From Cyrtodaria siliqua (taxonomy: Eukaryota; Mollusca; Bivalvia; Adapedonta; Hiatellidae), in the NCBI GenBank assembly GCA_037043455.1, contig JAWPHD010011493.1:19417-83416 (forward strand): DNA of 64,000 nt, read 5' to 3'. This document shows positions 24,901-51,167 of this stretch, one piece after another. The translations under genes were made by a program, and so were the position numbers. How positions within the stretch are numbered: the stretch's first letter is position 1; every line of letters begins with the position of its first letter. Below the pieces are notes generated by a model. The model ran no database searches and was not told the DNA's origin. It saw only the letters and a program-made list of their open reading frames with translations.

Positions 24901-27900
24901 CTATGAACTACTCAACTACCATTTAATAATGTTTATGTTATGTAAAACAACATACGGAATGCTTTGACTTTAAAAAACACACAAGTGTGTCGTGTGTCCC
25001 TTTGAAAAAAATTGACTGGCCCGGCGATTGCCGGGATACTATAATAGTTTTGAAAGGCACACAATAAACGAACGGGTTGAAACACGAAAAAAATTAAGAT
25101 GGCGAAATAGTTTTCAAGTTATTATACAATTAACCTGATCATTGTTGTAACACAAAGGAAAACAAACTCCAAATATGCAAGCTTATTTTAAATGAAATGT
25201 ATACAGTATTATTGAATTAATACTTGATAAATACTTCAGTATTGCCTTTGTCACTTTATTTGTTTGATTATATCTACTTGTGTAGTGTACCAACATCGCC
25301 GACTTACCACACAGATAACCTGTCGCTGCATATCCTTCGTCACATTGCACCAGTCCTACAACAGTGATTGCCTCTGTATCAACTGTGTAGGACACACCAT
25401 CTACCTCAATGTTGTATGCAGAGGTAATGTTATTTTCTATAAGGTCGGCTACTTCTTCCATGGCGAGTATAGCTTCAATTAATTCGGACAGACTTTGGCT
25501 TGCTGAAATTAATTAAAAAGTTGCATTATACATTTCACCATTTGCCTTCAACCATTTGTAAGGGAAGATTTTGTCAAAATACTAAACATATTTATAAAAA
25601 GTATATTAATGTAGATATAAAGGAAATCAAAACATTTCCCTTTAACCTGATACTTATAATGCATGTTTAACCAAACTTATCAATTCCTGTCCTTTAAAAT
25701 GGAAGGAATAAGTATAAAGGGATTTATGTAACAACTATACTGTACAGAGTTGTGTAATCGGACCAAGTATATATGTTATTCAAACTTTACTTTTTATACT
25801 AAAGATTAAATTCATTTAAATGTTAGTGCTAGAGAAATGTGTCATAAATTTCACTTGAAACTGTCGGACAACAACCTTTCCATGTCCACTGGTTTAATAA
25901 TCTGTATGTTAAATATTATTTTAGAAATACCACTAATCGTACTCACCAGACTGATAGTATGCATATTAAATATTATTTTAGAAATATCATCAATCGTACT
26001 CACCAGTTCCGGTGGACTGATAGTATGCATGTTAAATATTATTTTAGAAATATCAACAATCGTACTCACCAGTTCCGGTGGACTGATAGTATGCATGTTA
26101 AATATTATTTTAGAAATACCAATAATCGTACTCACCAGTTCCGGTGGACTGATAGTATGCATGTTAAATATTATTTTAGAAATATCGACAATCGTACTCA
26201 CCAGTTCCGGTGGACTGATAGTATGCATGTTAAATATTATTTTAGAAATATCAACAATCGTACTCACCAGTTCCGGTGGACTCATAATCAGCAAGTTGAA
26301 TATCTCCTGGTATTGTCAAGAAAATGTTAAATTCTATCGTCAAAGTAGATACTGCTGACCTTTTCCTTCTGGTTGACGATGAAAATGATGCCTGCATTTC
26401 ACATATTCTACTTGTTAGACAGTCAACGTCTGCCAATGCGTCATTAACATTCGAGCCAATTCTATCTTGAACGCTTGTTGGAACGAGTAGATAATACGGA
26501 ATTCTGGCTATGGAACCATAGGCAGGTGGTTTCAATGCATCTAAAATAATCGTTGTTAATAAGTGTACAGTCATTTTGCAAATGAATGTATATGGTTTTG
26601 GAAATAATTTTATTTTTATATTATATGATCTAATTGCGGGTAGGTCAGCTAGGGATAAAAGTCACTGCTGTTGCAGACGTGTTATACAAAGTTCAAGAAG
26701 TTTTAAATAAGAAAGATGTGTTTCAAGAGTCCACGAATTATAGAGTCTCCAGCCAGTTGAGTTGTATGCTATTCGTCTTCATATATTTAAGATGCCGTAT
26801 GAAACTAGTACTTTTAATATTAAGACTCCCTTGAACTAACATGACTACGTTTATATATTTATAAAGCGCACACCTACCAACACACACTGGTACTTTGTCG
26901 ATTGGTTCCCAAATATTTATATAAATCACACCTAACAACACACACTGGTACTTTGTCGATTGGTTCCCAAATACTTATATAAATCACACCTAACAACACA
27001 CACTGGTACTTTGTCGATTGGTTCCCAAATATTTATATAAATCACACCTAACAACACACACTGGTACTTTGTCGATTGGTTCCCAAATATTTATATAAAT
27101 CACACCTACCAACACACACTGGTACTTTGTCGATTGATTCCCGAATATTTATATAAATCACACCTAGCAACACACACTGGTACTTTGTCGATTGATTCCC
27201 AAATATTTATATAAATCACACCTACCAACACACACTGGTACTTTGTCGATTGATTCCCAAATATTTATATAAATAACACCTACCAACACACACTGGTACT
27301 TTGTCGATTGATTCCCAAATAATTATATATCACACCTACCATAACACACTGGTACTTTGTCGATTGGTTCCCAAATATTTATATAAATCACACCTAGCAA
27401 CACACGCTGGTACTTTGTCGATTGATTCCCAAATATTTATATAAATCACACCTACCAACACACACTGGTACTTTGTCGATTGGTTCCCAAATATTTATAT
27501 ATATCACACCTAGCAACACACGCTGGTACTTTGTCGATTGATTCCCAAATATTTATATAAATCACACCTACCACACACACTGGTACTTTGTCGATTGGTT
27601 CCCAAATATTTATAAAGCTCACACCTACCAATACACACTGGTACTTTGTCGACTGTTTCCCCCAAAATTTATATAAATCACACCTAGCAACACACACTGG
27701 TACTTTGTCGATGGGTTACCAAATATTTATGAAGCTCACACCTACCAGAACACACTGGTACTTTGTCAATTGGTTCCCAAATATTTATAAAGCTAACACC
27801 TACCAATACGCACTGGTACTTTGTCGATTGGTTCCCAACTATTTATATAAATCACACCTAGCAACACACACTGGTACTTTGTCGATGGGTTACCAAATAT

Positions 27901-30900
27901 TTATAAAGCTAACACCTACAAGAACACACTGGTACTTTGTCAATTGGTTCCCAAATATTTATAAAGCTAACACCTACCAATACGCACTGGTACTTTGTCG
28001 ATTGGTTCCCAAATATTTATATAAATCACACCTAGCAACACACACTGGTACTTTGTCGATGGGTTACCAAATATTTATAAAGCTCACACCTACCAGAACA
28101 CACTGGTACTTTGTCAATTGGTTCCCACATATTTATAAAGCTCACACCTACTAACACACACTGGTACTTTGTCGATTGGTTCCCAAATATTTATAAAGCT
28201 CACACCTACCAACACACACTGGTTCTTTGTCGATTGGTTCCCACATATATATAAAGCTCACACCTACCAACACACACTGGTACTTTGTTGATTGGTTCCC
28301 AAATATTTATAACACTAACACCTACATAAACACACTGGTACTTTGTCGATTGGTTCCCAAACATTTATATAAATCACACCTATCAACACACACTGGTACT
28401 TGGTTCCCAAATACTTATAAAGCTCAAACCTACCAACACACACTGGTACTTTGTCGATTGGTTCCCAAATACTTATAAAGCTCAAACCTACCAAAACACA
28501 CTGGTACTTTGCCGATTGGTTCCCAAACATTTATATAAATCACACCTATCAACACAAACTGTTACTTTGTCGATTGGTTCCCAAATACTTATAAAGCTCA
28601 AACCTACCAACACACACTGGTACTTTGTCGATTGGTTCCCATATATATGCCGTCTCAGCTCCACATCTATACTCCTCGAACGCTTGTTGTCCAGTCGGAA
28701 GCAGCTTACCATCCACACAGGTCATATTGCATACCGTCACAGTACTGATATCATCCGAGCATGTGACTCTTGTTCCAATTTTTCGTTTAAGTGCAGAGCA
28801 CACTGCATTATATATATGTGATAATGATGATGATTTATTTTTATTCATTTTATTATTTAAAAGATTGTGAAGTGTGTTCAATGACATAAAATTACAAAAA
28901 TATTTAAATTAGGAAAGCAACCATTTGTGCTGAAGTTTAAATACACCCAAAATAGTACAATTTACTGACACACGTGGTACATACGTGTACACTTATAATA
29001 TTGTATTTGTTTATATTGGTCTACAGTTGATACAAACAATAACTATACTTATTAACTAGTAAATAAATTTACCAGGGCATGTTTCTGTATTGCATGTTTC
29101 GATATCAACGTCATCTCCTCCACAGTCGTTACCCAGGTATCCCGGTTCTGGATTGTTGCAACTTCTGCTACGTTGTCTTGTTCCGCCGTTACACGTGACG
29201 TCACATGCTGACCACTCCAACCAGTCTGACCATCCACCATTTACTAAAACCATACTTAGTATTAATACTTTGCGAATCGATAAAGTAGCAAAACTTAGTT
29301 ATGCAATATAAACTTAACAGTTAAATAACAAATTATGATAAAATCAAAAGTCAAGAGTCAGTTAATTAGACAGTTTATAGTTTTCAATTAACACTATGCA
29401 GATGAAGCATTGAAATGATTTTTTTTTTACTTTTTGCGCTGTGTTTATTCTTCGCCAAACGATACAAACTGTTCATTGAAGCTCATAGTAAGCTATACTG
29501 AAAGTAGACGTGAGAATCATGGCTCTTATGGTAGCATTTACCTACCATAGAGTCATCATAGAGCCATGATTCCTGTGGTAGTATGTATCTAACATAGAGC
29601 CATGATTCCTGTGGTAGTACGTACCTACCATAGAGCCATGATTCCCGTGGTAGTACGTATCTAACATACAGCCATGATTCCTGTGCTTTTAGTAATAGGT
29701 AGGACCTCGTTGCGACCCCCATACGCACGTTTTAGGCGATGTTTCTGAAGGCATCTGCAATGCCCGCATAAACAACCACCGTATTTGAATAGAACAAACC
29801 TTAAATACCATAACTGCTTGCAGAAAACTCACCAAAGAGAGGAAAGACTTGATAATATAGTCGGTGTTCGAAGGTCACTGTTAATTTTCGTCATTTTCAT
29901 TGTTTACTTTCGCAATAATCTCATTCTCGTGCTACGTTACCTTTCGTATTTGGAAACTTAACACCACCCCATTGACACATCTGACAATTTCCGGTTAACG
30001 TTGTTCATTTGTGTCAGTTGTGGGCGGGTTTAAGTTTCTAAATATGGAACGGGACAGCGTTCGATTTTTTTCGAAAGATAAACATTCAAGAAAAATATGT
30101 CTGCTAAAACATAGAGTCGAACACAAATTGCCCAGATCGACGAGATAATCTTCTCTTTGGTGAGTTTTATGCATGCACGTGTGGTATTTAAGGTTTAGTC
30201 TATTGAAATACGGAGGTTGTTTATGCAGGCATTGTTTGATATCTTCCGAAACCTCTATTGCTGGGGTCGACCCTACCTATTCTATAAAGGATCGCATCGT
30301 ACATATAGCTAGCATAAGAGTACCCACCATAAGAGCTATGATTCTCGCATATATACTGAAAGGAACTCAGTTATACCTGGAGGTGTTTCACAGAACACGC
30401 CGGTATACCCGTCGTTGCAATTGCACCTGTAGATTTTATTGTCAGAGACACAGTCGCCACGAACACATTCATTGTATTTGCAGTAGTCCGGAGGAATATC
30501 ACACAAAACACCCGTCATGTCTCCTTGACAAATACACTCGAATCCGTCTACATTGTTTATGCAGATGTGATCACCGCACGGGGCATCTTTACACTCATCT
30601 ATTGCTGTAACAAAATGATAACCGTTGTGTTATATAAATACATAAATATAATGTGTTAGCATATGCCCTCATTCTAGCCATTTAACTATAATCTTTATGT
30701 TTTATTTGACATATATAGACATATATAGACATACAAACATATACATATATAAATAGTATTCTGGTAACAAGTTCTAGTAACAGTAGATTACCTGTCTGCT
30801 CAGTGTGTTTTGTTTTTCATAAAATTGGGAAGAGGCCCAGGCCTGTCCGATTTGCGGGCGAACGCGATTATTACTCATTTTTGGAAACATGTAAGATTTA

Positions 30901-33900: not shown

Positions 33901-36900
33901 AATCATTTGCATTTGCAATCATTAATTATTAGAATAGTTCAAAGCAATTTGTCTTTAGATGTTGCCCAAATAATATATTGAAAAAAGAGGAAGATTAACG
34001 AAGAAAATTGACATCACAATTGTTCATTTAATTCTTTGCAAATATTTTTGAAATCAAAATGATGCATGATTAATAAATGGAGGTGCTTATTTTATTGCTT
34101 GATATAAAACTCAAGATTGCCTTGTGTCCCTTTAAACAAAAATTGCAAGCACAAATGTCATGTGTCGACACCGATATAATGTTTCCACGTCAGTTTAAAT
34201 CGCTAACAAGTCTCAGCGAGTTGGTCTCGGCGAGTTGGTTTATTTAAACAACCAACGAGCTGAGACAGACTCTATCTGTTTTGTAGTATTGTGCATTTAG
34301 TGACCCCGTCTGTACTCTAACTTCCATTTATTGGGAGTTAGAGTACGGTAAAGAGTAATTTTATTAAAAAGTGGCGTTTAAATTAAAATAAAGTAATTGT
34401 AAAATACTATAATTAAAGTTCATGTGTCACTTCCGTGTAAAAACAAGACTTTACATACAACAGTTGGACCTGGGCATTTCTCTCTCTTTATATGTTGAGT
34501 TACTTACGTATGCAGCTGGAATTTTGTTTTGAGCCAGTTGACAACGTGCTATATCCATCAGGGCACGTGTCACATAATACAGCACCGTCATGTTCCATGT
34601 ACTCCCCAGTTTTACAGTACTCGCAGTTACCCGTGCTCGAGTCTAGGTAAGTCCCTCTCGGGCAAGGCTCTGTAAGATTCACGTACAAATACATGATATA
34701 ACATCGCATTAACTCAATCAGTTTATATGTCGTCAATAAGTGTATATAACTATATATACCTATATTATATATACCTTTATTATATACGTATCAATAATTA
34801 TATACATAGTACCTTCATTTTCTTACAGTGGAACCTCTAGAGGTTTTCTGAATCCGTATCAGTATGATAGTAAAAATAGATTCCGTATCACTATCCTACT
34901 TAAAATAGAACAGGGAAATTCCTAATAATGCTTGCATTTACACCAATTTGCACGAAAACGTCAAGACGACGTTACGTCAAACAAACAAAACAAGTACGTC
35001 GCACCAATGAACTTTTAACTTGTAAGCTGTAGCTACACCCTCAAATACATTAAAATACGCCCATTTACCTTCTACAATTTATCAAAAAATAAGCCTTGAA
35101 ACATTTAGAAACCTTCTTTATTGCTTACGTATGCAACATAATGTAAAATGTGTCAGTTTTGTATTGTAAAATGTGGCAGTTTGTATTGTAAAATGTGACA
35201 GTTTTATATTGTAAAATGTGGCAGTTTTGTATTATAAAATGTGGCAGTTTGTATTGTAAAATGTGGTAGTTTTGTATTGTAAAATGTGGCAGTTTTGTAT
35301 TATAAAATGTGTCAGTTTTCTATTGTAAAATGTTGGAAGTTTTGCATTGTAAAATGTGGCAGTTTTGTATTGTAAAACATGGCAGTTTTGTATTGTTAAA
35401 TGTGGCAGTTTTGTATGGTAAAATGTGACAGTTTTGTATTGTAATCGGATGCAATTTTGATTTATTTTACAAACATAATACTACTTACTGCATTTGACAT
35501 CTGCTGATGCAAACTTATATCCAGTATCGCAATAGAAATCCGGGTTAGACCCTGTTGCAAAAGCGCCATCTCCCAGGGTTAAGTTTGCAATGTCAAAGTG
35601 TCCACCATCTACTTGAACTTGTATCTTATCAGCTATACTGGTTAATAAACCGGAGTTATATAGATAAGCCTCCGGAAGCGTCCTATCACCATGAATAAAT
35701 GAAGTCATAATATTCCACGTGACCGTTACGAAATCGGATTCAGTTTGTCGCTTGAAAATGTCTTTATACGGACTTCTTTTTTTTCTTGAGGTTGTTCCAC
35801 AGACGACATTAAGATTCTCAGTTTTGCAAGTGCTTTCTTCTGGACATATTGTGTTGTCTATATCCGCTTGTGATGTAGTCAGTAGCGTAAGCACTTGTTG
35901 CTTGATTGCTTCTTGTGTGGCGGCGTCAGAACAACTACCTTCGTAGTACAACTCAGCCGGCAGGAATAGGAACGGGAAAAAGGCTTCTGAAGTTTAAACC
36001 AAGAACAATCAAATATATTAATTTATCCAAGTTAACAAAGTACTATACAAAGCACTACATAATTGTACTATCCTAGTTAATCTTAACGTGACCCATTAGG
36101 GCCTGTGACACTCTACTGGCAACATGGACCCACTAGGGTTGGGATTAAATTTATTCGCAGGTCACCGATTGTAACAATATAAACGTACTATGATATTAAA
36201 CAGTTATACTTTTGTCATTGAAACATTTATTCAAAATGCTTTATTATAAACATTCTGGAAACATTTGGTTAAGATCAGATATAAAACATAAGTGATGTGA
36301 TGGAAACATGGCCAAAGTATGCCATTTATCTAACTGCAATGGCATACAACTCATGTTCATTACCATATACTATGACTGGTTGAAGAAATTGTCCAATATC
36401 TCATTATTATACACGTTCTGTAAAATCAACTCTGACAAGGGGATATCTTTGAAGCAACAAATACAAACAGGAGATAAAAGTAGCAGACTCGGTTTTATTG
36501 AGTCTGTTCATGAGATATTATATAATGTGCAACGACTTTTGCACAGACCCTATCCCCGGCTTAAGCGATATTTTACTTTAAAGCTACACAGTTTGGGTTT
36601 TCTGATAAAACAAAGGACTATTGTTTGGGGCGCTTGTTTCAGCCAAAGGTTTTTCGGCAATAGCATGAGCAATTTTATAAATACGGCCATATATAAAGTC
36701 ATTAGAACTCGAATTTTTAGTGGTAAATAACAATACCTTACTTTTCAAATTCGGTTGAGAAATAAATATTTTACAGCCAAAATGCTATTTTGGTGGGGCT
36801 TTTTCCATGCAAATTCCTTGTTGCTGGGCAGCAGACAATTATGAAATCTGAAATAACTTCCGTTTGCCCTAATATTTTGTTATAAAACTTTCAGAGTGTC

Positions 36901-39900: not shown

Positions 39901-42900
39901 ATTCAAAAGAAGTTTTAAAATACAATTTTGATGAAAGGGGGTCTCTGCAATCTGAGGGTCTTTCAAAATAATTTTATTTGCAAATACACCAGATTGCTGT
40001 GTGTTCCTTCAAATCTTGAAAGCAGTAAACATTTATAAAATTGTCAAAATATTTATTTTGTTACTTTAATATGCCTTCGATGATAATTGTAAAGAAATGT
40101 GTGTTTTTTAAAACCCAGCACATATATCTTGTATAAAGTAACGTAGATAAAAAAGTTCAATTGTTTTTTACATTATATGGTCCGAGTATTAACTTTCATA
40201 ACCCATCCAACCCCTTCTCCAAAAAGCGAAAACGGGGTTGACTGAGGTATAAAATAAAACCTTAATTTAGCCTGAACATGTTTGCATATTGTAAAATTAA
40301 AACATTTAGGTAATTTTAAACAAGTTGTCGCAATTTTTCAGTAAAAAATGTTTTTAAACGTGTTTTATGTCGAAATATCCGTTATAAAATCCTACGAATA
40401 TGAGCTTTCCCATCGCTTAATGGAATGAAGGCGTTATACTTCGGAAACAAATACATTCATTTTCAAAGACGTATTTGACGTATATGGTAACTCATTCATC
40501 ATGTTTTACCTTTAACTTCAAGTGTGACAGTACACTCTGACTGTGGCGAGGTGTTTCCTTCAATATCTGTAGCCCTGTAATGAACATAGTGTAAACCTTC
40601 TTGCAACTCGTCACCAAGGTCCGGACCGTTTATCTTGGTGATTGAAGGATCCGTGTCAACATTATCGGTAGCTGTGGGTTCGATCCATGATACCGTCGTA
40701 ATGTATGTCCCGCGGTCCGCGTAGAATACCTGAGGCGACTGGCATGCTATTACAGGAGGATAGTTATCTGTAAAACAAATGCACTCCTCACTGAAAACTG
40801 TTTTATTCAATGTTGAGAGTAAATGAAAAAACAAGCATTTATGTGAGACGAGTAACGGCTATATTTGATATATATACTCACTTGCAAAAGAAAGTGTACA
40901 TTTTGAACATTTTACTTTACACACTATCCTCTTTATCAGTATCTTAATGATTCAGCCTGATTGACAAACAAATGACAACATGATATTGGCAATGGTATGA
41001 TACAAACTTTGGTACCAAACATGGCATATTCATTTTAGAATTTGTCGATTTAATTCTAAAAATACTTTATACAATTAAATCTAAACACAACTCAGTGTAC
41101 ACTTTCTTTTGCAACTGAGTATAGTTTACTAGAAATAATAACAACGAGAAATCAAATAAAATAAAAGTTAACGCTAATCGTTAACATCGCCGGTGATTGC
41201 ATCCATACAGGGCAGAGATTTGCAGCTCTAACTCGCAATGTCTTCCTCTGCCGCGTTCATTATACTGGTATACTGCTGTCAGTGTAAACAGTACTGCTGT
41301 CAGTGTAAACAGTACTGCTGTCAGCAGTAAACGGAACTGATGTCAGTGTAAACAGTACTGCTGTCAGCATACAGAACTGATGTCAGTGTGAACAGTACTG
41401 CTGTCAGTGTAAACATGATGCGTGTCATTTTACCAAACATTTTTTACAATATGTCCATGCTGTTTTGGGTAGGGTGAATATATTATTTTATATATAGAGG
41501 AATATATTAACTAAGCTATTTTGTGTTCCTTTTCCTATTGTCTATCGACAATCACCCTATGATATACACGTTTATAAATAAAAACACGTATAAACTAAGT
41601 GTCATAAAGTGCAATGGTCTTCTTCAGTCGTTCAAAAAGTAAATGTTACTACGCCTTTTAAATTAATTAATCCAGTATTTGGCTTGCAGTCACCGAAAAA
41701 AGATAGAGTTTCAACTTAACCGTACAACTGATCTTATTTACTCTCACCGTCAATGTGCATCCGAGAGGTTAACGTCGTTGCGTTGGAAACCTTCTCATTC
41801 CTCACCACTGCTGGTTCGAATCCCATTGGGAGTTCAACTTGTAAGTGAGAAAGTGTCGATTCTTACGGATGACGGGAGGTGTACAGTACTTGTTTTACCC
41901 ACTGCAGGAAAATATTGGGGTGGTCTGCCTCTACCACAAAAACAATCGAACGTCATAAATGGCATAAAATGTGCTAAAAATGAAGTAAAACCATTCAAAC
42001 AAACTGTCTCCGACCACGCCATTTCAGCCTACCTGTACAACTAATCTGATTTATTGTCACCGACCACGCCATGTCAGCCTACCTGTACAACTGATCTGAT
42101 TTACTGCCACCGACCACGCCATGTCAACCCACCTGTACAACTGATCTGATTTACTGTCACCGACCACGTCATGTCAGCCTACCTGTACAAATTATCTGAT
42201 TAACTGTCACCGACTTCACCATGTCAGCCTACCTGTACAAAAGATCTGATTAACTGCCACCGACCACGCCATGTCAGACTACATGTACAACTGATCTGAT
42301 TTACTGTCACCGACCACACCATGTCAACCTACCTGTACAACTGATCTGATTTACTGTCACCGACTTCACCATGTCAGCCTACCTGTACAACTGATCTGAT
42401 TAACTGCCACCGACCACGCCATGTCAGACTACATGTACGACTGATCTGATTTACTGTCACCGACCTCACCATGTCAGATTACCTGTACAACTCATCTGAT
42501 TAACTGCTACCGACCACGCCATGTCAACCTACCTGTACAATTGATCTGATTTACTGTCACCGACCACGCCATGTCAGATTACATGTACAACTGATCTTAT
42601 TTACTGTCACCGACCTCACCATGTCAGCCTACCTGTACAACTGATCTGATTTACTGTCACCGACCACGCCATGTCAACCTACCTGTACAACTGATCTGAT
42701 TTACTGCCACCGACCTCACCATGTCAGCCTGCCTGTACAACTGATCTGATTTACTGTCACCGACCACGCCATGTCAACCTACCTGTACAACTGATCTGAT
42801 TTACTGTCACCGACCACGACATGTCAACCTACCTGTACAACTGATCTGATTTACTGTCACCGACCACGCCATGTCAACCTACCTGTACAACTGATCTGAT

Positions 42901-45900
42901 TTACTGCCACCGACCACGCCATGTCAACCTACCTGTACAACTGATCTGATTTACTGCCACCGACCACGCCATGTCAACCTACCTGTACAACTGATCTGAT
43001 TTACTGCCACCGACCACGCCATGTCAACCTACCTGTACAACTGATCTGATTTACTGCCACCGACCACGCCATGTCAACCTACCTGTACAACTGATCTGAT
43101 TTACTGTCACCGACCACGCCATGTCAACCTACCTGTACAACTGATCTGATTTACTGCCACCGACCACGCCATGTCAACCTACCTGTACAACTGATCTGAT
43201 TTACTGCCACCGACCACGCCATGTCAACCTACCTGTACAACTGATCTGATTAACTGTCACCGACCACGCCATGTCAACCTACCTGTACAACTGATCTGAT
43301 TTACTGCCACCGACCACGCCATGTCAACCTACCTGTACAACTGATCTGATTTACTGCCACCGACCACGCCATGTCAACCTACCTGTACAACTGATCTGAT
43401 TAACTGTCACCGACCACGCCATGTCAACCTACCTGTACAACTGATCTGATTTACTGCCACCGACCACGCCATGTCAGCTTGACAAGTCATCTTCTGCGGT
43501 CCAATTAACTGGAATCCATCATTACACTGGAAATTGCAATCGTCATCAAAGGAATAAGAAGGATCGTCACACAAAACCTCACCGTTAGCTGGTGCTGTTG
43601 GCACTGGACATATCACCTCTGAAACGATATAACGCACGTGTGCTACTTCATATATACTCTGACCACCGGGCATGTTACCTTATATAGTACTTCTATTAGT
43701 GATACATGGCGACCAATTGCTGGAAACTGTATTGGATCTGTAAATGTTATGGTTGTCGCCTTCTGTCCCTGTTAGGTACATATCTATAATTGCCGCTTTT
43801 CATAAAAATACATAACAATAACATTAAATAACAGTGTGTGCGTGTATACATCTAAACTTACCGAAGCTGTATTGCACTGTGAATGTTAGAGAGCAGGGGC
43901 CCGTTTCACAAAGCTACGTACGATAGTTTTGATCGTAAGACCAGATTTAGCACCAGCCCCTGTAATTTAACTAAGCATTTAAGGTAACCAAAACTTTGTG
44001 CATAATTATGTACTTGTATTAGAAAATGTAATGCAATTTCATTTTAAGAATTTAAGAATTTTACTAACGATAGATAATATCGTAAGAAGTTTAGTTTAAG
44101 GACTATCGGTCAGCCATCTTTGAAAAAAAAATCCAAAATGGATGGGGTATGATTAATTGAAATTTTCATCCAAATGCAAATTATAGGCATGAACATTGTC
44201 AATGATATAATAGATGACATTAATGCAACACTATTGATGTGAACACAATATCAGAAACAATATTTATTTGGCAGAAATAGTGCCCTTTATATTCAAAAAG
44301 TTTAGTGCAATTTTACTCTAATATGTTTTGTTTTTTATGTTAAATAAATTTGTCCATAGAATTGTCCATTTATCTAAAAATGGCACACGAAACATCATTT
44401 CTAAATTAAATACGGCATGTTATTACATCATCCACATTTCAAAGTCAATCATTGTAAAAAAAAAAGCTATTCTTTCAATGACATGTACTTTCAAAATAAT
44501 CTCAATGCTATAGTATGGTGGCACTGACGGGTTTTAATTGTCAAACTATTATAAATGGCAACTATATTGTTGGATGTATTAAACACAACTGTGTGACTGT
44601 TGTGAACAGAAACATGGCAACACAAGAGTAATTTATTATTATATTCCTATAAAAACAGCACAAACTAAATAATAACATATGAATACGATAAAATTACCTG
44701 TTTATCCGAATGTTTCACCATACAGAATGTTTCAATTTACAATTCGCCTGCATGCTTTTCATGTGTATCATGTGCGTGTGTTGAAGGCACATGGCGCATA
44801 AAGAAAATCTTCATTTTTAACAATGGTGTACTTCGAATTTTGGATGATGTGATAACATGGCTTACTTTATTTAGAAATGATGTCTCGTGTGCCATTTTTA
44901 AATAAATGGACAATTCTATGGACAAGTTTATTTAACATAAAAACAAAACATCTTAGAGTAAAATTGCACTAAACTTTTCAAATATAAAGGGCACTATTTC
45001 TGCCAAATAAATATTGTTTCTGATATTTTGTTCACATCAATAGTGTTGCATTAATGTCATCTATTATATCATTGACCATGTTCATGCCTATAATATGCAT
45101 TTTGATGAAAATTTCAATTAACCGTACTCCATCCATTTTGGATTTTCTTTTCAAAGATGGCTGACCAATAGCCTTTAACGGGCCACATGATTCAGTATCG
45201 TCCGAAGGACTTATCAGGTGTGACATTCGTTTTAAGAATTCCGATAATCCATGGCTGGGATTATAAGAATCTTTTATGGATATCCGATTAAGATAGGGAA
45301 TTCCAACCCGAGGTATACGTGTTTAAAACACTTGTACCGAGGGAATTTCCTATCTGAACCGAATACCCATGATAGATTCTTTTTCTTGAATATCAGAGAA
45401 ATGTTGTGCATTGACGCCGCCAGCTATTGATGTTTTGCATGTTTTCCTGCATACCGGATGTTGGCGCGCGTGAATTTTATCTCGACCCTAGGGTGAGATG
45501 GAAATATCTAGCCCCGGTAAGATGACGGATATCCTTGTCCGGTATGCAAGAAAAAACACTCGATCCCTGGAATACTAAATCGAGATGCGAACTATTAAAC
45601 AACGTCGTAACATTGCAGCTCAATAGACACAACGAAGTAAATTTATTTATGTGTAAATAAATAATTGTATACGTACTGGTGCATGTTGGAATTTGGTTCC
45701 ATGTTTCTGACGACAGACACGACGCCTGATTGTCTCCAGTCATTTCGTAACCATTATCACATTGAAATGTACACGTACTGCCAAAAACATAACCGTCCGT
45801 ACACGAAACTTGCCTTCCATTCGCTGGAATCGTGGGAGCTTCGCATGAAAGATCTGAAACACCATAAAATAGAAATAATTTCGCCAACACGTGTTTTACC

Positions 45901-48900
45901 ATAGCCAAATTATTATTATAAATATCATCTTGAGTCAGGGCCTCAGTTTGACCAAATTGAAGCTAATTGTTTCGTAATATTGTTTCTCTAATAATGCAAT
46001 AAAAACTACTAAACGTAAAAGACTTGCATCTAGCAGATAGACCAGTCCGGGAACATATTTACTCCGGAGGCAAGCTGCCTTAAGGAGCTTTCCCCTTTTT
46101 AGAGCTGTCTAACACTGAATTACTTTTGTTGTCTATACTTCTAACATGGTATACATAACGAATGAAACAAAATAAAAACATTGCCTTGGAAGCCTTAATG
46201 AAGAAAAAGCAAACAGGATGAAAAAGAAACTATTTTCAGAGTTAGAATATTTCATCCATATGTAGATAATAAAAAATTATATAAGACAAATATGTATATA
46301 CTCATCATAAAACATTATTTGAAAAATGAAACCGATACAGTTATGCCTTTGATTAACGTTAAGTTTGATATGATATACTAAGAAAATGATTTAAAACAAT
46401 GGGTTTACATTTTGTGAGAAAAGAGAACTGGCAGGTGGCAGTAAGTCCCTGATTATCCGTGGCCGTGTATGTCACCGTGTGTTGTCGACCACCACCAGGT
46501 AAAGCAGGAAAAATAGCACCGTTCTTATAGTCATTACAACACGTGATCACGCTCCTGAAAGCAAAAAGCATTATTACGCTGCAACACCGTTATTACGTTC
46601 CTGAAATTAACAACCGTTATTATAGTCTAGATCATCTGCGACGCTTGCTTGTTTTCAAGACAAACGTCAAGAACTGTTCTTCTGAAAAAGGTTTGACGCG
46701 GCAGCCATTTTACCAAGATTCGGGTTTCTGATTGGCCTATACAGACGCACCTTCTATCGAAGATAAACAGAACGACAGAAAGACACTAAATTAATAAATA
46801 AACAAAGAGGGAGACTTTATCATTATATCGACAAATGTTGTGGATGGTCACAAAAACAGACACGTGTTTCCGGTTTCATTGTTCTTCACAAAGGGTCAAG
46901 ACGTTTGTATTTACAATCAAGCGTCAAAGACGATCAAGACTGCAGTTATTATACAGCAACACCTGTATTACACTCCAGCACGCAATAACGCTACTGAATG
47001 TAGCATGGTATTATACTTCAACACCGTTATATTACCACTATTGTTGCGTTATATACTAAACAAGTTGTTGCGGCATTCTTACCACAAGGCTATATACTGG
47101 ACTCGTGCTTTTCCTTCAGGAAATCACTTGCCCCTCACCGCTGTAGGTTCGATCCCTCAGGGGCCTAGGAATCTTTATGTGAGCAAGCTATCCAGCTGGC
47201 TTGCGGGACGTCGGTGGTTCTACCCAGGTGCCCGCCCGTGCACGAAAATTGCCCGGAGGGCCACCTGGGGTCTTCCTCCACCAATGGAAGCTGGAAAGTC
47301 GCCATATGACCTTAACTGTTGGTGCGACTATAAAATCCAATTCAATTTTCCTTCAGGACAATATCAGTGTTTCCATTTCCGGCTAGGCTTATCAAAAATC
47401 ATTTTTAGTCAGAAATTTCAGTTCAATCGATCAAACAATATTTTTTCTTAAAAAGAAAAAAACCATTATTGCTATGAAATCGATACACGTGAAACATATA
47501 TAGGTTATTCATGGCATACTTACGAGCTTATCGATACGTCATCGTATGGTTCCGGTTCCGACCACGTGACAGCAACACTTTTCCCATGTATGGCAGTGTA
47601 GACGGGTAGAATGTCGCTTGGAGGACAGTTTCTGTACTTGGGCGGAATCACTGTAAACCAGTATGTTATGCAATACTATTGAGTAGCTCAGTTTTCATTG
47701 GTGAAATAATTCATTGTAAGTTTTCTGTCAAATTAGTCTAGAAACTGAATTGCATTTTTATTAGATTACAAATAAAGGGACACTACTCTTAACTGTACAT
47801 GTTATCTATATTATTTGTATACATACGTGGTGGAGGTGGTGGTGGTGGTGGTGGTGAGCGTCTGCCCCGCCTTCGCCACCAGCCCCTCTTCTTCCGTATC
47901 CGTTTTTCCTTCTTTGGGCGGCTGTTGTCGCTTAAAGTATTGCCTGCAACAATAAGAAAATCGTATTGTGATACGAAGATACATTCAAACTGTACATTCA
48001 ATTTGTATTCAAGATCCTCCTATTATATCAACTTCATTTCCTTCCTATCCTACTTTAATGTTGTTTTGTGAAAATAGTATAGATGTGTATTGTGTCGTAT
48101 GAAACCGTTTGCATTTCTGAAAATAGAGATATTTTTGAACAGCCAAACTCGATATTCTCATAAAGAAATAGACATAGAGCCGTTTTTATCAGTGCCAAAA
48201 AAGAATTAAACTTGTTAAACGTGTTAAAAGATTTATCAAAAGAGGTTATGACCCTATCATTTTGCGACGCACTGCATGCTTGGTGGTGGACCCATTTACA
48301 GTTCGCCACTATGCTTTCCTCTTTGATTGTGCGATGATCGGACATGCTGTGGAACCTATGATGACGTCTACCTAAAGCCCAAAAGGACGGTGACGTTTGA
48401 TGATTGACTGCAGTCTTGTCTTGTCCTGCCCTCATTGGTGTATTCCCTTGTTGCTCTGGCTTATGCCAAGTCAATGAGTACCTTGTCTGTGGCTTTCTAG
48501 GCTATTTGTTTTTTGTATTGATATATACACGAGCATCTGTATTTTACTTTAATTGCTTATTAATGCTGCCTTGTTGGTTAGAGAATAGTTCATGGCGGGG
48601 ATTTACTTTATTTACACTGTCCCGTTTTATTGGGTTGAAGTAGGGTAAGTGTGAGATTTGGTGTACCCTCGAACCTAATTTAAACTCCTAGCGTTTTTTT
48701 TTTTGCCACTGACCGTTCCAAGGCGGTAGCCCTATTGTCAACCATTTTGTGTTTGTGATGTCTTATTTGGCCTTTTATCATCTTTACATTTGTTCTTTGT
48801 TTCTGTGTGTGTTTGTGGTTGACCTTCGTCCTTGAATGCTGCTTTTCCTGTTCGATTTTTATATCTATATTAAGCTGGATATATAGAAGCAAAGTGTGCG

Positions 48901-51167
48901 ATAGCACAAACAAGAAAGGTTTAAAAACAGGAACGATCAGTGGCAAAAACGTCCATATGGTTTACCCCAGGTTGCAGGGTGCACCAAACTTCATTCTATT
49001 TTTACTAATAAAACAAATTTAATCCCAGATTGTTTGTCTAAAAGTATCACAGCAGCTACGCAGTTGTTAAAATACTTACACTCTTCGTCCTGGCAGTTGT
49101 TAAAATACTTACACTCTTCGTCCTGGCAGTTGTTAAAATACTTACACTCTTCGTCCTGGCAGTTGTTAAAATACTTACACTCTTCGTCCTGGCAGTTGTT
49201 AAAATACTTACACTCTTCGTCCTGGCAGTTGTTAAAATACTTACACTCTTCGTCCTGGCAGTTGTTAAAATACTTACACTCTTCGTCCTGGCAGTTGTTA
49301 AAATACTTACACTCTTCGTCCTGGCAGTTGTTAAAATACTTACACTCTTCGTCCTGGCAGTTGTTAAAATACTTACACTCTTCGTCCTGGCAGTTGTTAA
49401 AATACTTACACTCTTCGTCCTGGCAGTTGTTAAAATACTTACACTCTTCGTCCTGGCAATCGTCACCCTCCCAAGTTCCGTCTGGAGAACACACCAGGTG
49501 TCGTGTTGTACCGCTTAGTTCCTGCGAACATACTGTACCTATCCTCACCTCTGTATAGCGGAGATCGTATATGGTCAAGTCGGTGTCTATACATAGCTCT
49601 ATGTTCTTGAGGGCAACCAGAGAGCACGTTGGTTCGATGTTTTCCTAAATAGGATAGGAAATATTATAATAAGTGATATAAATATATGCTGCTGCTGCCT
49701 GCTGCTTTTGCTGTCGGTGATAACAAATTATGATAAATCGTAGATATCTATATTTTAAATGCTATATACAGGTCCTACTTCAATCCACCTTAGAGCAAAT
49801 AAAGAGAATGAGGGATACGATATATAATATATACTGGTATGGAGCGTCCGTGGCCGAGTGGTAAGAGGCTCTGACTTTTAATCACTTGCCCCTCACCGCT
49901 GTGGGTTCGATCCCTCATGGACCTAGGAATCTTTATGTGAGGACGCTATCCAGCTGGCTTGCGGAACGTCTATGGTTCTACCTAGGTGCCCGCCCATGCA
50001 CGAAAATTGCCCGGAGGGACACCTGGGGTCTTCCTCCACCAATGGAAGCTGGACAAGGCGACATATGACCTTAGCTGTTGGTGCGACTATACAATTCAAT
50101 TCAATTTCTACCTGTGAAAGTACATACTGAAAATAATAAATATTATATAAGTTGAAGAAAAAAAGACATGCGGCTGGCAGCTGCGGTACTGCTGGTGTCG
50201 ATGTAATACATATTGATAATGCATTATAGTCGATGTAATACATATCGATAATGCATTATGCCCGATGTAATACATATTGATAATGCATTATGTAAATGGT
50301 TACTCCTCTGCAAGCTATACAATCTATTTTAACAAATCATATTAAAATAAGGCAAACATATGTTTTACATATGTATATTTAATTTTGCATCATATAATTA
50401 TCAAACATATCTCATTCGTTTAAGAACAAATATATAATGCAATTTAGTAATATACTGAAAGGAAAGAGAAACGCAACACGGGAATTTCCGCTATATAATG
50501 TATATACTGCACACTCAATTCCACATAAGATTCCAAAGAAATTCCAAGATGTTTTGTAAATAAAAAAGGTTGCAGTTAGTTAGAGAAAGGACACAACTGT
50601 GATGTTTTGTAGAAGATTTAATCACAGTACACTTTTTAACAAGAAATTCATAAATGTTGAAGTTCCTCGTTGAAAAATTGAGCAATTTCAGTTAAATGTT
50701 GAAGTTCCTCTTTGAAAAATTGAGCCAGTTCAGTACTGTATTTAACGTAAAGACAAAATTGTGTAAACTAAGTTTGCTCACATGCTGGAGCCAAACGCGT
50801 ACTCTGTCAATAATAAAACTTTGAAGGAATACTATTTGCTGTGTTACGTGTTATTTAAGTCTTTTTTTTCGAAAGGAAAGGTCTTACGTAGCCATGTACC
50901 ATTCGATTACCAGCAGCATATGGTACATACAATATAAAGCGGAAATTCCCGCGTTGCGTTTCTTTTTCCTTTCAGTATATATTATTTAGTTTCTAAAATA
51001 CATAGTTTAAGATATAACCTATTAATTTTCGCACTACTTCTACTACTTACCTTATATTTAATGTCTAAATTAGAAAACAGCTCTCTTCCATCACTATGAT
51101 TAACGTGAAAAAATAAAACATGAATCAAAACAACAGACAGTTTAGTCACCATCTTCGAACGGAACAT
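21736..51167 (-). CDS. SVEP1-like multidomain type I membrane protein, 24 exons, 1588 residues
   Basis: Exons join without frame conflict (4767 bp including stop). 19 of 23 introns are phase 1, the signature of shuffled extracellular modules. Order by residue: signal peptide 1-30; CCP-like 40-107; basic/poly-Pro 108-146; HYR 147-236; CCP 237-295 and 296-357; HYR 358-443; CCP 444-516 and 517-581; module A with furin-like RKKRS 582-747; ephrin-receptor-like Cys-rich (GCC2/GCC3) 748-840; LamG/pentraxin-like about 845-1040; EGF x2 1046-1121; TSP1 1122-1178; CCP-like 1179-1243; module B with RRKRS 1244-1399; GCC2/GCC3 1400-1451; Ser/Thr stalk 1452-1483; TM about 1486-1508; cytoplasmic tail with PPVY. 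The make-up matches molluscan proteins called SVEP1-like. I see no VWA domain, and there is a TM anchor, so this is a relative rather than an orthologue. Likely a cell-surface adhesion or recognition receptor; the ligand is unknown. Confidence 0.85.
22745..22880. mobile_element. Diverged relative of element G, intron 23
   Basis: Shares ggggctagagggcgtgagcg and catgaacagtctcaatcaaa with element G. Confidence 0.45.
23049..23139 (-). CDS. Receptor gene exon 23, transmembrane helix
   Basis: Acceptor gtattttcag, donor ATAAG/gtattt, phase 1 to 2. Encodes VAIICTSVTVGVVAVIAIGC followed by VIWK, a single hydrophobic helix with a basic stop-transfer, so the N-terminus is extracellular. Confidence 0.85.
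23432..23527 (-). CDS. Receptor gene exon 22, Ser/Thr-rich stalk
   Basis: Acceptor actgaatctag, donor TCAT/gtaagt, phase 1 to 1, 96 bp. Encodes VSKVTTTPSQTTIHQEHVTS then SGNQESAETLS, a probable O-glycosylated juxtamembrane stalk. Confidence 0.7.
23891..24046 (-). CDS. Receptor gene exon 21, GCC2/GCC3 Cys-rich repeat
   Basis: Acceptor gatatacag, donor TCGG/gtgagt, phase 1 to 1. Encodes CPAGTQFSDGLCIDCEVGTY, QSEPGQSSCNSCPSGY and C, the third ephrin-receptor-like repeat. Confidence 0.85.
24503..24781. mobile_element. MITE family CATTACGTGGTCC, full copy, intron 20
   Basis: 279 bp, ends cattacgtggtcc and ggactacgtaatg (one mismatch). No coding capacity. Confidence 0.8.
25308..25502 (-). CDS. 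Receptor gene exon 20, module B second half
   Basis: Acceptor attaatttcag, donor TGTG/gtaagt, phase 1 to 1. Encodes SLSELIEAILAMEEVADLIE, YNIEVDGVSYTVD and VQCDEGYAATGYLC. It corresponds to the second half of exon 11, where there is no intron. Confidence 0.75.
25890..26285. repeat. 66-bp minisatellite spanning the exon 19 donor, about 5-6 copies
   Basis: The minus-strand unit contains tccaccggaactg/gtgagtacgattg. 66 bp is a multiple of three, but the intron part has an in-frame TGA, so distal donors would truncate the protein. Confidence 0.9.
26268..26540 (-). CDS. Receptor gene exon 19, module B first half with furin-type site
   Basis: Acceptor gattattttag, donor ACTG/gtgagt, phase 1 to 1. 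Encodes VDCLTSRICEMQASFSSSTR, then RKRSAVSTLTIEFNIFLTIP. It is homologous to the first half of exon 11, with a basic cleavage motif RRKRS at the same place. Confidence 0.75.
26862..28650. repeat. 58-bp minisatellite spanning the exon 18 donor, about 30 copies
   Basis: The minus-strand unit contains ggaaccaatcgacaaagtac..tgtgttg/gtaggtgtgat, i.e. exon end plus intron start. Several distal copies have lost the GT (cctagc or cctaac instead of cctacc on +). 58 bp is not a multiple of three, so only the exon-proximal donor keeps the frame used by exon 19. Confidence 0.92.
28608..28802 (-). CDS. Receptor gene exon 18, CCP-like domain
   Basis: Acceptor atataatgcag, donor GTTG/gtaggt, phase 1 to 1. 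Encodes IGTRVTCSDDISTVTVCNMT, GQQAFEEYRCGAETAYIW and VPVC. The last ~40 bp with the donor are the first unit of the 58-bp array. Confidence 0.8.
29073..29243 (-). CDS. Receptor gene exon 17, thrombospondin type 1 domain
   Basis: Acceptor atggttttag, donor CCTG/gtaaat, phase 1 to 1. Encodes NGGWSDWLEWSACDVTCNGG, TRQRSRSCNNPEP and C..C. The W-x-x-W-x-x-W and C-x-x-x-C-x-G-G-x-x-x-R-x-R motifs are complete. Confidence 0.95.
29510..30347. mobile_element. Foldback element, intron 16
   Basis: Outer ends tgagaatcatggctctta and its complement (agagctatgattctcgc). Inner arms around 29690-29838 and 30147-30300 are also inverted (e.g. aaaactcaccaaagag / ctctttggtgagtttt). The left end is expanded as a 46-bp tandem repeat. 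A minimal relative lies at 57729. Confidence 0.75.
29540..29690. repeat. 46-bp tandem repeat at the foldback end
   Basis: Three to four units with atagagccatgattcc and gtggtagtacgtacctacc. Confidence 0.75.
30377..30604 (-). CDS. Receptor gene exon 16, two EGF domains
   Basis: Acceptor tttgttacag, donor CCAG/gtataa, phase 1 to 1. EGF 1 starts AIDECKDAPCGDHICINNVD (calcium-binding type). EGF 2 is YCKYNECVRGDCVSDN..C-N-C-N-D-G-Y-T-G-V-F-C. Confidence 0.9.
31257..31840. repeat. 39-40 bp minisatellite about 15 bp downstream of the exon 15 donor
   Basis: About 14 diverged copies of gccaagacgatttatattgg followed by aacaagtacaatgcaatgta. It begins almost at the donor but the unit does not include it. 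Confidence 0.85.
31857..32027 (-). CDS. Receptor gene exon 15, LamG end and linker
   Basis: Acceptor cattgtttcatttcag-type, donor GACG/gtaata, phase 1 to 1. Encodes GVFIAGLAMYGWSLSAAEVS, the standard LamG closing strand, then a linker ending TPSICDG. Confidence 0.85.
32535..32814. mobile_element. MITE family CATTACGTGGTCC, full copy, intron 14
   Basis: 280 bp with perfect inverted ends CATTACGTGGTCC and GGACCACGTAATG. The interior matches the copy at 24503 in reverse orientation. Confidence 0.8.
32925..33124 (-). CDS. Receptor gene exon 14, LamG middle
   Basis: Acceptor tttttcag, donor AATG/gtgagg, phase 2 to 1. Encodes DHWTFIVCILDVPTQHLQLY and SGTLDLSVGSLSLEQ, typical LamG strands (W-T-F-I-V..L-Y-x-D). 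Confidence 0.85.
33383..33743 (-). CDS. Receptor gene exon 13, GCC2/GCC3 repeat and start of LamG
   Basis: Acceptor attgtttcag, donor GCCGG/gtatta, phase 1 to 2. First CSACPVGTYQPAGGQTNCIE (Cys-rich repeat), then about 75 residues beginning the LamG/pentraxin-like domain (AVSLAFWSKRQSDMHPHLAI). Confidence 0.85.
34508..34669 (-). CDS. Receptor gene exon 12, ephrin-receptor-like Cys-rich repeat
   Basis: Acceptor aatcttacag, donor ATAC/gtaagt, phase 1 to 1. Encodes CPRGTYLDSSTGNCEYCKTG, CDTCPDGYSTLSTGS and C. The C-P-x-G-x-Y..C-x-x-C..C-x-x-C-P-x-G-x-x-T pattern is GCC2/GCC3. Confidence 0.85.
35140..35445. repeat. 23-bp minisatellite about 45 bp downstream of the exon 11 donor
   Basis: About 13 copies of ttgtattgtaaaatgtggca. 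The unit does not contain the donor itself. Confidence 0.85.
35489..35986 (-). CDS. Receptor gene exon 11, module A with furin-type site
   Basis: Acceptor taaacttcag, donor TGCA/gtaagt, phase 1 to 1, 498 bp. It begins right after a CCP, encodes EGSCSDAATQEAIKQQVLTL, a C-x-x-x-x-x-C pair, then TSRKKRSPYK, a putative proprotein convertase site. After that come a strand FVTVTWNIMTSFI and FYCDTGYKF. It is homologous to exons 19-20. The alpha/beta pattern around the basic site recalls SEA-like domains; that is my inference and I know no named family. Confidence 0.75.
36470..37220. mobile_element. Element G interrupted by element F, intron 10
   Basis: 36470-36617 and 37171-37220 match the left and right parts of element G (see 6776). 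Element F sits between them, so F is the younger insertion. Confidence 0.6.
36618..37170. mobile_element. Non-autonomous DNA transposon F with GGGGCGCTTGTTTCAGCC ends
   Basis: gcgcttgtttcagccaaagg at the left and its exact complement at 37140-37160 are terminal inverted repeats. actattgttt / aacaatagt extends the symmetry outward. A related, more diverged copy lies at about 61985-62360. No ORF. Confidence 0.7.
37330..37445. repeat. Two-copy 62-bp direct repeat, intron 10
   Basis: ccaagggcagataactcact..ccattaaatatgcataca occurs twice. Confidence 0.75.
38048..38242 (-). CDS. Receptor gene exon 10, CCP/sushi domain
   Basis: Acceptor ctttaccag, donor ATCA/gtaagt, phase 1 to 1. Encodes VECPPLDPPTNGAIINDTVQ, MACQSGYDISAVGSS and W..FPDC. 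Confidence 0.8.
38640..38940 (+). mobile_element. LINE 3' end fragment, intron 9
   Basis: Starts attacaaggtgctgcaattac (RNase H LINE 3' coding remnant) and ends tcgacgtgccgtaaaacacc with ATTC repeats. Internally deleted relative to 13166. Confidence 0.6.
39038..39256 (-). CDS. Receptor gene exon 9, CCP-like domain
   Basis: Acceptor atatcgttatag, donor AACG/gtacgt, phase 1 to 1. Encodes IKCSTGPTDSLDNSRFMLYN, VACNLDCDLNLLLNG and W-x-x-G..YC. The cysteine/tryptophan pattern is that of a sushi domain, with extra cysteines. Confidence 0.75.
40171..40436. mobile_element. MITE family CATTACGTGGTCC, intron 8
   Basis: Left end cattatatggtccgagtatt; right end diverged. Contains cgttataaaatcct and ttcccatcgcttaatggaat. 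Confidence 0.65.
40510..40767 (-). CDS. Receptor gene exon 8, HYR domain 2
   Basis: Acceptor tgttttacag, donor AAAG/gtaaaa, phase 1 to 1, 258 bp. Encodes NYPPVIACQSPQVFYADRGT, VSWIEPTATDNV and LHYVHYRATDIEGN..C-x-V-x-L-x-V. A complete HYR domain in one exon, unlike HYR 1. Confidence 0.9.
41270..41415. repeat. Minisatellite with unit cagtactgctgtcagtgtaaa
   Basis: Six to seven imperfect copies of a ~21-bp unit in intron 7. It is not near a splice site. Confidence 0.8.
41700..43477. repeat. 50-bp minisatellite spanning the exon 7 donor, about 29 copies
   Basis: The unit includes ttgtacag/gtaggttgacatgg on the minus strand, i.e. the last ~43 bp of exon 7 plus the first ~7 bp of the intron. 50 bp is not a multiple of three and reading through meets a stop, so only the first donor keeps the protein. 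Distal units (left end) are more diverged, and a SINE splits the left end. Confidence 0.9.
41752..42003 (+). mobile_element. tRNA-derived SINE inserted in the 50-bp array
   Basis: A-box-like gcatccgagaggttaacg and B-box ggttcgaatccc lie about 55 bp apart, followed by an unrelated body. Array text resumes on both sides. Confidence 0.6.
43433..43618 (-). CDS. Receptor gene exon 7, CCP/sushi domain
   Basis: Acceptor atcgtttcag, donor ACAG/gtaggt, phase 1 to 1. Encodes CPVPTAPANGEVLCDDPSYS, FQCNDGFQLIGPQKMTC and W..ISC. The last ~43 bp, with the donor, form the first unit of the 50-bp minisatellite. Confidence 0.85.
44101..45172. mobile_element. Large foldback element, intron 6
   Basis: About 380-bp inverted arms (44101-44480 and 44790-45172) around a 310-bp core. 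Examples: cagccatctttgaaa at the left and its complement tcaaagatggctg at the right; gaattgtccatttatctaaa and its complement nearer the centre. No transposase ORF. Confidence 0.8.
45264..45384. repeat. Palindrome of about 120 bp, intron 6
   Basis: Arms aagaatcttttatggatatc..gatagggaattcc and their complement (gaatttcctatc..agattctt) around cgtgtttaaaacac. Confidence 0.6.
45677..45853 (-). CDS. Receptor gene exon 6, CCP/sushi domain
   Basis: Acceptor ggtgtttcag, donor ACCA/gtacgt, phase 1 to 1. Encodes LSCEAPTIPANGRQVSCTDG, FQCDNGYEMTGDNQASCL and W..PTC. Four cysteines and the tryptophan are in place. Confidence 0.9.
46409..46554 (-). CDS. Receptor gene exon 5, HYR domain 1, second half
   Basis: Acceptor ttgctttcag, donor AAAAT/gtaaac, phase 2 to 1. 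Encodes LPGGGRQHTVTYTATDNQGL followed by TATCQFSF, the canonical HYR ending (V-x-Y-x-A-x-D-x-x-G-x..C-x-F). Confidence 0.85.
47121..47347 (+). mobile_element. tRNA-Ser SINE, 5' truncated, intron 4
   Basis: Begins aaatcacttgcccctcaccg with B box taggttcgatccct; the A box is missing. The body and attcaatt tail are intact. Confidence 0.75.
47524..47650 (-). CDS. Receptor gene exon 4, HYR domain 1, first half
   Basis: Acceptor ggtttacag, donor AGCTC/gtaagt, phase 1 to 2. Encodes PPKYRNCPPSDILPVYTAIH and VAVTWSEPEPYDD, the start of a HYR (hyalin repeat) domain. Confidence 0.8.
47827..47943 (-). CDS. Receptor gene exon 3, basic and poly-proline segment
   Basis: Acceptor ttattgttgcag, donor CCAC/gtatgt, phase 1 to 1, 117 bp. 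It encodes RPKKEKRIRKKRGWWRRRGR, RS and then nine prolines made by a (CCA)n microsatellite. The segment links the CCP-like and HYR domains. Cluster RRRGRRS could be a proprotein convertase site. No family recognised. Confidence 0.65.
49062..49458. repeat. 33-bp minisatellite, 12 copies, spanning the exon 2 splice donor
   Basis: The minus-strand unit reads CQDEECKYFNN in frame and contains GAGT/gtaagt. The copies look identical by eye. No stop codon occurs on either strand in that frame, so the array can be read as exon or as intron. No spacers, so it is not a CRISPR array. Confidence 0.9.
49443..49644 (-). CDS. Receptor gene exon 2, CCP-like domain
   Basis: Acceptor cctatttag. It encodes ENIEPTCSLVALKNIELCID and ends HLVCSPDGTWEGDDCQDEE, a degenerate sushi domain with the terminal G-T-W..C pattern. 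It ends in phase 1 at the first of twelve identical donors (GAGT/gtaagt). Donors at every 33 bp down to 49080 keep the same frame, so the exon may be longer by multiples of 11 codons. Confidence 0.7.
49842..50105 (+). mobile_element. tRNA-Ser-derived SINE in intron 1
   Basis: Full-length copy: gcgtccgtggccgagtggta A box, gtgggttcgatccct B box, then the family body and an attcaattcaattt tail. Confidence 0.8.
50195..50295. repeat. Three-copy 29-30 bp tandem repeat
   Basis: cgatgtaatacatattgata followed by atgcattat, three times. Confidence 0.75.
50451..50978. mobile_element. Foldback element of about 530 bp in intron 1
   Basis: tatactgaaaggaaagagaa..cgcaacacgggaatttccgc at the left is inverted at 50932-50978. 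The right end is only about 70 bp from the exon 1 donor. No ORF inside. Confidence 0.75.
50640..50735. repeat. Two-copy 42-bp direct repeat
   Basis: aaatgttgaagttcctc..gttgaaaaattgagc occurs twice in tandem inside the foldback element. Confidence 0.65.
51051..51167 (-). CDS. Receptor gene exon 1, signal peptide
   Basis: ATG at 51165-51167; a second in-frame ATG five codons on (51150-51152) gives a cleaner signal peptide, MVTKLSVVLIHVLFFHVNHS. Donor AAG/gtaagt, phase 0. Confidence 0.8.

Follow-up and report, generated by a model that had tools for sequence, protein, structure and literature searches.

The locus and its genes

The window, as the whole stretch of DNA analysed here is called, comprises 64,000 nt of Cyrtodaria siliqua (positions 19,417-83,416 of the forward strand of contig JAWPHD010011493.1, in the 2.88 Gb assembly GCA_037043455.1). 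Its minus strand carries a predicted gene that is intact and SVEP1-like. The partial model joins 20 exons (e2-e21, the first and last exons falling outside it) with no stop codon and with AG/GT at all introns, which are of phase 1 throughout except after e4 and e13. The Pfam domains found above the cut-offs are ephrin-receptor-like, sushi, HYR and thrombospondin type 1, and the closest proteins are those of clams (Mercenaria mercenaria and Ruditapes philippinarum), mostly annotated as SVEP1-like, the four longest matches showing 44.7-48.4% identity over about 1,200 residues. The open frame and the exon ends agree with these homologues: tblastn matches from the clam proteins end at the donors of e7, e18 and e19, and the end of e2 is backed by the identical donor position in a second copy of the gene on another contig, C3354. 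In one clam protein (P0001), a 32-residue stretch is tandemly doubled ahead of a likely transmembrane segment. The exons whose donors matter most here are the following, with the exon/intron boundary marked by a slash.

49443..49644, minus strand: exon 2 (sushi-like by eye), donor AGT/GTAAGT, 96% identical to the same exon of C3354
43433..43618, minus strand: exon 7 (sushi), donor CAG/GTAGGT
28608..28802, minus strand: exon 18, donor TTG/GTAGGT
26268..26540, minus strand: exon 19, donor CTG/GTGAGT
25308..25502, minus strand: exon 20, donor without an array in the window and with a multi-unit array in C3354

Exon 3 ends, right at its donor, in 30 bp of (CAC/GTG)10 microsatellite (window 47827-47856), and the match to exon 3 of C3354 is longer there. 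A dispersed repeat at window 30000-30350 occurs in at least about 40 places in the assembly and is mostly 79-87% identical among the matches listed. Elsewhere, the plus strand holds a 686 aa open frame that by eye resembles a LINE reverse transcriptase (58232-60292) and a second gene (about 2600-15600), where one of eight open frames tried matches DUF5054 below the Pfam cut-off. This second gene contains arrays of 38-39 bp units at 13944-15080, in mid-intron, approximately 870 bp past a likely donor called by eye.

Arrays across the splice donors

The original prediction, made from the sequence alone, placed tandem arrays across the donors of exons 2, 7, 18 and 19 of the minus-strand gene. Tandem Repeats Finder (TRF), with which arrays were called, was run on the gene and confirmed all four.

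49060..49458, minus strand: 33 bp array across the exon 2 donor, 12 identical copies, unit of 16 exonic and 17 intronic bp
42003..43476, minus strand: 50 bp array across the exon 7 donor, 29 full copies, unit of 44 exonic and 6 intronic bp
26855..28646, minus strand: 58 bp array across the exon 18 donor, 31 copies, unit of 34 exonic and 24 intronic bp
25949..26286, minus strand: 66 bp array across the exon 19 donor, 5-6 copies, the last partial, unit of 13 exonic and 53 intronic bp

The copy numbers given beforehand (about 12, 29, 30 and 5-6) were reproduced with a single change, from 30 to 31, and the 15-43 bp of exon assigned to the units came close to the measured 16, 44, 34 and 13 bp. Each of the four arrays has as its first unit the genuine end of the exon, donor included. 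Two further arrays had been placed within about 60 bp downstream of donors and were found there, at 44 bp (e11) and 21 bp (e15); two more lie in mid-intron.

35142..35444, minus strand: 23 bp array, 13 copies, starting 44 bp past the exon 11 donor, unit without a donor (by eye), 2.1 copies in C3354
31464..31835, minus strand: 40 bp array, 9 copies, starting 21 bp past the exon 15 donor, unit without a donor (by eye)
41271..41415, minus strand: 21/40 bp array in the middle of intron 7, not donor-linked
29557..29685, minus strand: 36 bp array in the middle of intron 16, not donor-linked

Copies of the e7 unit are more exon-like the nearer they stand to the exon (rho -0.70), and no gradient of copy similarity to the exon was seen in the e18 array. 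The difference in variability between the exonic and intronic parts of the copies was weak (P 0.02 for e7 and 0.5 for e18). If a downstream donor were used, a premature stop would follow in 28 of 28 copies at e7, 5 of 5 at e19 and 29 of 30 at e18; given these stops, and given the match of frame and exon ends to the homologues, the first donor is presumably the one normally used in the array-bearing exons. Exon 2, with its 33 bp unit, is the only one of the four with an in-frame unit and a donor in each copy: all 11 downstream donors would leave the frame open and in phase. The arrays were also considered as micro-exons, as AG precedes the exonic 13 bp in the e19 units; a polypyrimidine tract is absent by eye and the frame would break, and this reading was rejected.

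The dinucleotide GT is retained in 12 of 12 copies at e2, 28 of 29 at e7, 20 of 31 at e18 and 6 of 6 at e19, so that splice signals are present in many copies. At e18, the 11 copies that have lost it include the first downstream one. The e2 and e19 copies are too uniform for a test of donor conservation; in the other two arrays the donor bases are not preferentially conserved, the nine donor columns of the e7 unit forming the most variable 9-column window of 50 and the donor window of the e18 unit ranking 40 of 58.

A second copy of the gene

Contig C3354 carries a near-identical copy of the SVEP1-like gene, in which 19 of the 20 exons are 93-98% identical to those of the window and e3 is 82% identical. 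The homology spans window positions from about 20,320 to 49,680, with its upper end 36 bp above exon 2. Outside it, over flanks of approximately 14-15 kb above and 6-20 kb below, the two copies have nothing in common but scattered repeat-like matches. Because the homology ends near the gene and the flanks are unlike, a paralog is the most likely identity of the C3354 copy, and an allele, which would have to be very different in structure, the less likely one.

Comparison of the two copies gives a view of arrays in different states. At e2 and e19, C3354 has a single unit and no array, and the introns of the window gene resume after the arrays almost exactly as in C3354. The arrays at e7 and e18 are common to both copies: e18 has 31 units in the window versus 8 in C3354, and the 50 bp TRF rows at e7 amount to 29.5 copies in the window versus 22.5 plus 15.5 in C3354. 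Copy number is therefore unstable, as seen between these two gene copies only (12 versus 1 at e2; 5-6 versus 1 at e19). Conversely, e20 of C3354 has six donor copies, at spacings of 35, 47, 47, 120 and 120 bp, versus one in the window; tandem units containing an exon boundary are thus found in four window arrays and at e20 of C3354. Of the 14 arrays of the C3354 gene, three span a donor and one more is within 60 bp of a donor; two are 54 and 65 bp away from an acceptor, with the other eight elsewhere, so that the donor bias is stronger in the window gene than in its copy. In the middle of intron 10 (window 37321-37446) a 61 bp unit is present in 2.1 copies; in C3354 it occupies about 3.3 kb (C3354:25213-28526, L011).

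The edges of the arrays were examined for traces of their origin. In-register matches between exon and intron one period apart are TGC at e2 (33 bp), GATTAT at e19 (66 bp) and ATATAT at e18 (58 bp), with shuffle P values of 0.16, 0.004 and 0.007, respectively; the 3-base match at e2 is within chance. Exon 19 of C3354 reads GACTAT in place of GATTAT, and the 6-base match may therefore have been imperfect or absent when the e19 array was born. The far edge of the e7 array is lost. A search with loose offsets yielded nothing for e2, e7 or e19 and ATATATA for e18 (P 0.02). These edge matches are consistent with slippage between short repeats, which they fall short of proving.

Distribution of arrays around splice sites

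Of the eight arrays in the window gene with at least three copies, six are no more than 60 bp from a donor and none is at an acceptor. When arrays were placed at random in these introns, P was about 1e-4 for donor proximity and 5e-4 for four or more donor-spanning arrays, values which are post hoc and overstate the case, the pattern having been picked after it was seen. The absence of acceptor arrays has a P of 0.28 under random placement and is by itself unremarkable, so that the polarity beyond chance that had been claimed holds for donors, with this reservation, and not for acceptors. Rows of approximately two copies, two of which are part of the e15 array complex, are distributed otherwise: none of the 12 comes within 60 bp of a donor, and the end of one is 48 bp short of an acceptor. 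On the sense strand the four spanning arrays are richer in G than in C, and the arrays at e11 and e15 richer in C than in G; on these opposite biases, a strand-bias or R-loop signature common to all donor-side arrays was rejected.

A further spanning array was found on C3354, in what appears to be another gene (C3354:48207-51967, L013/L014). It consists of about 51 units of 74 bp, with 50 occurrences of ACAGGT, and crosses the donor CAG/GTATGT of an apparent exon (EEVQKLRNALKEAKSRSKQ) called by eye, with 35 open codons between acceptor and donor. The peptide is coiled-coil-like by eye and gave no significant Pfam match. A near-perfect 16-base repeat stands one period apart at the edges of the array (by eye; it may be a partial unit).

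Beyond the gene pair, 90 sushi loci were taken, the 30 best-scoring and 60 picked by hand from 150 listed places, some of the 90 being e6 or e7 of distant paralogs of the SVEP1-like gene; 17 near-duplicates and one bad locus were left out and 72 were kept. A donor could be called in 49 and an acceptor in 49 of the 72, and a spanning array was found at 0 of 49 donors and 0 of 49 acceptors. Affected donor positions are thus 5 of 20 in the gene pair versus 0 of 49 elsewhere (P 0.0014). In the distant paralogs on contigs C1401 and C4052, which are partly the same loci, no array spans any of 11 and 5 donors, respectively. Arrays do occur near the splice sites of these sushi genes. A large one lies 34 bp past a sushi-exon donor (L032); in C3354 and in C1478 it is the e6 donor that is followed by an array at this distance (further C1478 sequence gave no additional exon match to the SVEP1-like gene). 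In C1401 and C4052, a 26 bp array lies 38-39 bp past the e7 donor and is unlike the e7 array of the window gene. On the acceptor side, a 69 bp array ends 43 bp before the e12 acceptor of C1401, and a 64 bp array of 7.3 copies ends about 32 bp before a sushi acceptor (L087, C67:351681-353045), its units containing an acceptor-like TTTATATTTAG. A 37 bp array of 15.7 copies lies about 110 bp past another sushi-exon donor (L103, C6852:2080-3435); its unit partly resembles that exon, and it is possibly an old donor-side duplication. The intron ahead of it seems, by eye, to contain decayed exon pieces.

With each position counted once, arrays that contain a splice site number six at donors (e2, e7, e18, e19, e20 and the apparent C3354 exon) and none at acceptors (one-sided P 0.016), four of the six being the cases that raised the question; without the apparent exon, called by eye, the count is five versus none (one-sided P 0.03). 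Arrays that are near a splice site without containing it, in a hand-assembled tally that was not blind and took arrays of at least three copies within 60 bp, number five at donors (e11, e15, e6 of C3354, e6 of C1478, and e7 of C1401/C4052) and three at acceptors (e12 of C3354, e12 of C1401, and L087). Outside this tally are the array at e3 of C3354 (65 bp from an acceptor), that at e9 of C1401 (2.0 copies, 18 bp from an acceptor), a window row of 1.9 copies that stops 48 bp short of an acceptor, L095 (12 bp unit, 2.2 copies) and L103. The original statement that no array begins at an acceptor is accordingly correct for the window gene (0 of 8); beyond the window, some arrays do terminate near acceptors.

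Proposed origin and survival of the arrays

The data presented above lead us to a model in which the arrays are probably mirage minisatellites of the kind described in amphioxus, arising from donor-straddling duplications that are tolerated and then expanded while acceptor-straddling ones are removed more often. A short tandem duplication would straddle the donor, its exonic and intronic edges often sharing a few bases. The first copy would keep the whole exon and its own donor, the extra copies would all be intronic, and splicing would proceed from the first donor, leaving the array free to grow, shrink and homogenise as any minisatellite. A duplication straddling an acceptor would place a rival acceptor upstream of the real one and would be removed more often. 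Such removal would produce the donor-only pattern among arrays spanning a splice site, and differential survival would be expected to leave a polarity only among arrays that copy the splice site itself. The model leaves unexplained why six of eight large arrays lie at donors rather than in mid-intron, and why 5 of 20 donors are affected in the gene pair versus 0 of 49 elsewhere. The acceptor-side mirage of amphioxus BflGb6 (PMC3087553) also speaks against it.

A rival explanation is a donor-linked instability, in which R-loops, polymerase pausing or the change of sequence between exon and intron would raise the local rate of duplication or expansion. Besides the six of eight large arrays within 60 bp of a donor, events of differing unit length that appear independent have struck the same donors: e20 of C3354 is duplicated with three spacings (35, 47 and 120 bp), e7 carries a different 26 bp array in the more distant paralogs, and in two gene copies arrays follow the e6 donor at a distance of 34 bp. 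On this reading, donors of some genes may be recurrent duplication sites at which a local, perhaps transcription-linked, process at the 5' splice site seeds or expands minisatellites, a suggestion we make tentatively. As a general property of donors, instability is opposed by their freedom from spanning arrays at all 49 called donors of other sushi exons, by the absence of the 12 short two-copy rows from donors, by the near-only arrays (five at donors versus three at acceptors), by the C3354 gene, where only 4 of 14 arrays lie at a donor or no more than 60 bp from one, and by the opposite G/C bias of the e11 and e15 arrays; we consider it possible but doubtful as the main cause. Of the donor-linked pattern originally proposed, the recurrence is thus borne out, at e20 and at the apparent exon of C3354, and a general donor-linked birth of repeats is not.

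The other part of that proposal, that the extra donors are kept by selection as U1-binding sites, for example in transcript protection or in the tuning of splicing, fares worse. Most copies do contain a donor that scores no lower than the poorest of the gene's real donors (12 of 12 at e2, 26 of 29 at e7, 19 of 31 at e18 and 6 of 6 at e19), but the donor bases are no better conserved than the rest of the unit, the donor window of e7 being the most variable of 50 and GT being lost in 11 of 31 copies at e18, and the e2 and e19 arrays are absent from the C3354 gene copy; selection for U1 sites was rejected as highly improbable. Exon 2 invites a separate reading as a productive splicing switch, with 12 donors yielding in-frame proteins with 0-11 extra 11-residue repeats. 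The open phase at all its downstream donors would suit this, as would the human IFI6 minisatellite, reported to supply alternative donors (PMC4526556), but the identity of the 12 copies equally fits the mere youth of the array and the C3354 copy has a single unit, making such a switch improbable. That same identity might instead betray inflated copy numbers or misjoined arrays in the assembly, and a misassembled mirage has been reported in amphioxus (PMC3087553); since the e7 and e18 copies are diverged and both arrays recur on another contig, an artefact is very hard to credit. We retain tolerated duplication at donors, followed by expansion, as the probable reading.

Comparison with known systems

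Amphioxus mirages are minisatellite-like duplications of intron/exon boundaries with unstable copy number that reportedly leave regular splicing undisturbed (PMC3087553). They are described in Adh3, the globins BflGb6 and BflGb9 and TnC (PMC3087553), and PGBD5 is reported as similar in a paper that cites Adh and TnC (PMC3902484). The clam units likewise span an exon/intron boundary, keep many intact splice signals and vary in copy number. They differ in that both boundaries are hit in amphioxus, BflGb6 having an acceptor-side mirage (PMC3087553), whereas the clam gene, in another animal group, has four arrays of up to 31 copies at donors only, and in that a near-identical gene copy with single-copy sites accompanies the clam case. 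The gene pair as a whole is affected at donors only; outside it, the L087 array ends about 32 bp before an acceptor and has acceptor-like units.

Repeat units at an exon end, each with a donor, are a feature that the clam arrays have in common with the human IFI6 (6-16) minisatellite and its multiple splice donors (cited in PMC2572611 and PMC4526556), and at e2 the clam unit is likewise in frame. The extra IFI6 donors are reportedly used; in three of the four clam arrays their use would give stops. The IFI6 unit reportedly differs in length from the clam units. Intron gain by tandem duplication of an AGGT-bearing piece of exon (PMC4974935, PMC2891723) also rests on the tandem duplication of a splice signal, as the clam arrays do, but in the clam no new intron arises: C3354 has the same two introns, after e2 and e19, with no arrays in them. 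Another parallel comes from human duplicated genes with internal tandem repeats where exons meet introns (PMC2812944). Like the clam arrays, these are minisatellites at exon borders in recently duplicated genes; there, however, they are reported to extend exons or introns or to give rise to new introns. No bivalve case of exon-boundary minisatellites was found in the literature searched, and it is on that search alone that novelty in bivalves would depend; the cone-snail intron paper PMC3862624 deals, in the text seen, with microsatellites.

The clam arrays thus belong to an already described, rare kind of repeat, the reports found of exon-boundary-spanning minisatellites being mainly from amphioxus with one human case, and are striking for their number, their size and the gene copy with single-copy sites. 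With four arrays and a close copy in which two of the sites are single, the birth, growth and decay of such arrays can be read directly, and it becomes testable whether a donor bias reflects the sites at which duplications occur or the survival of some of them over others.
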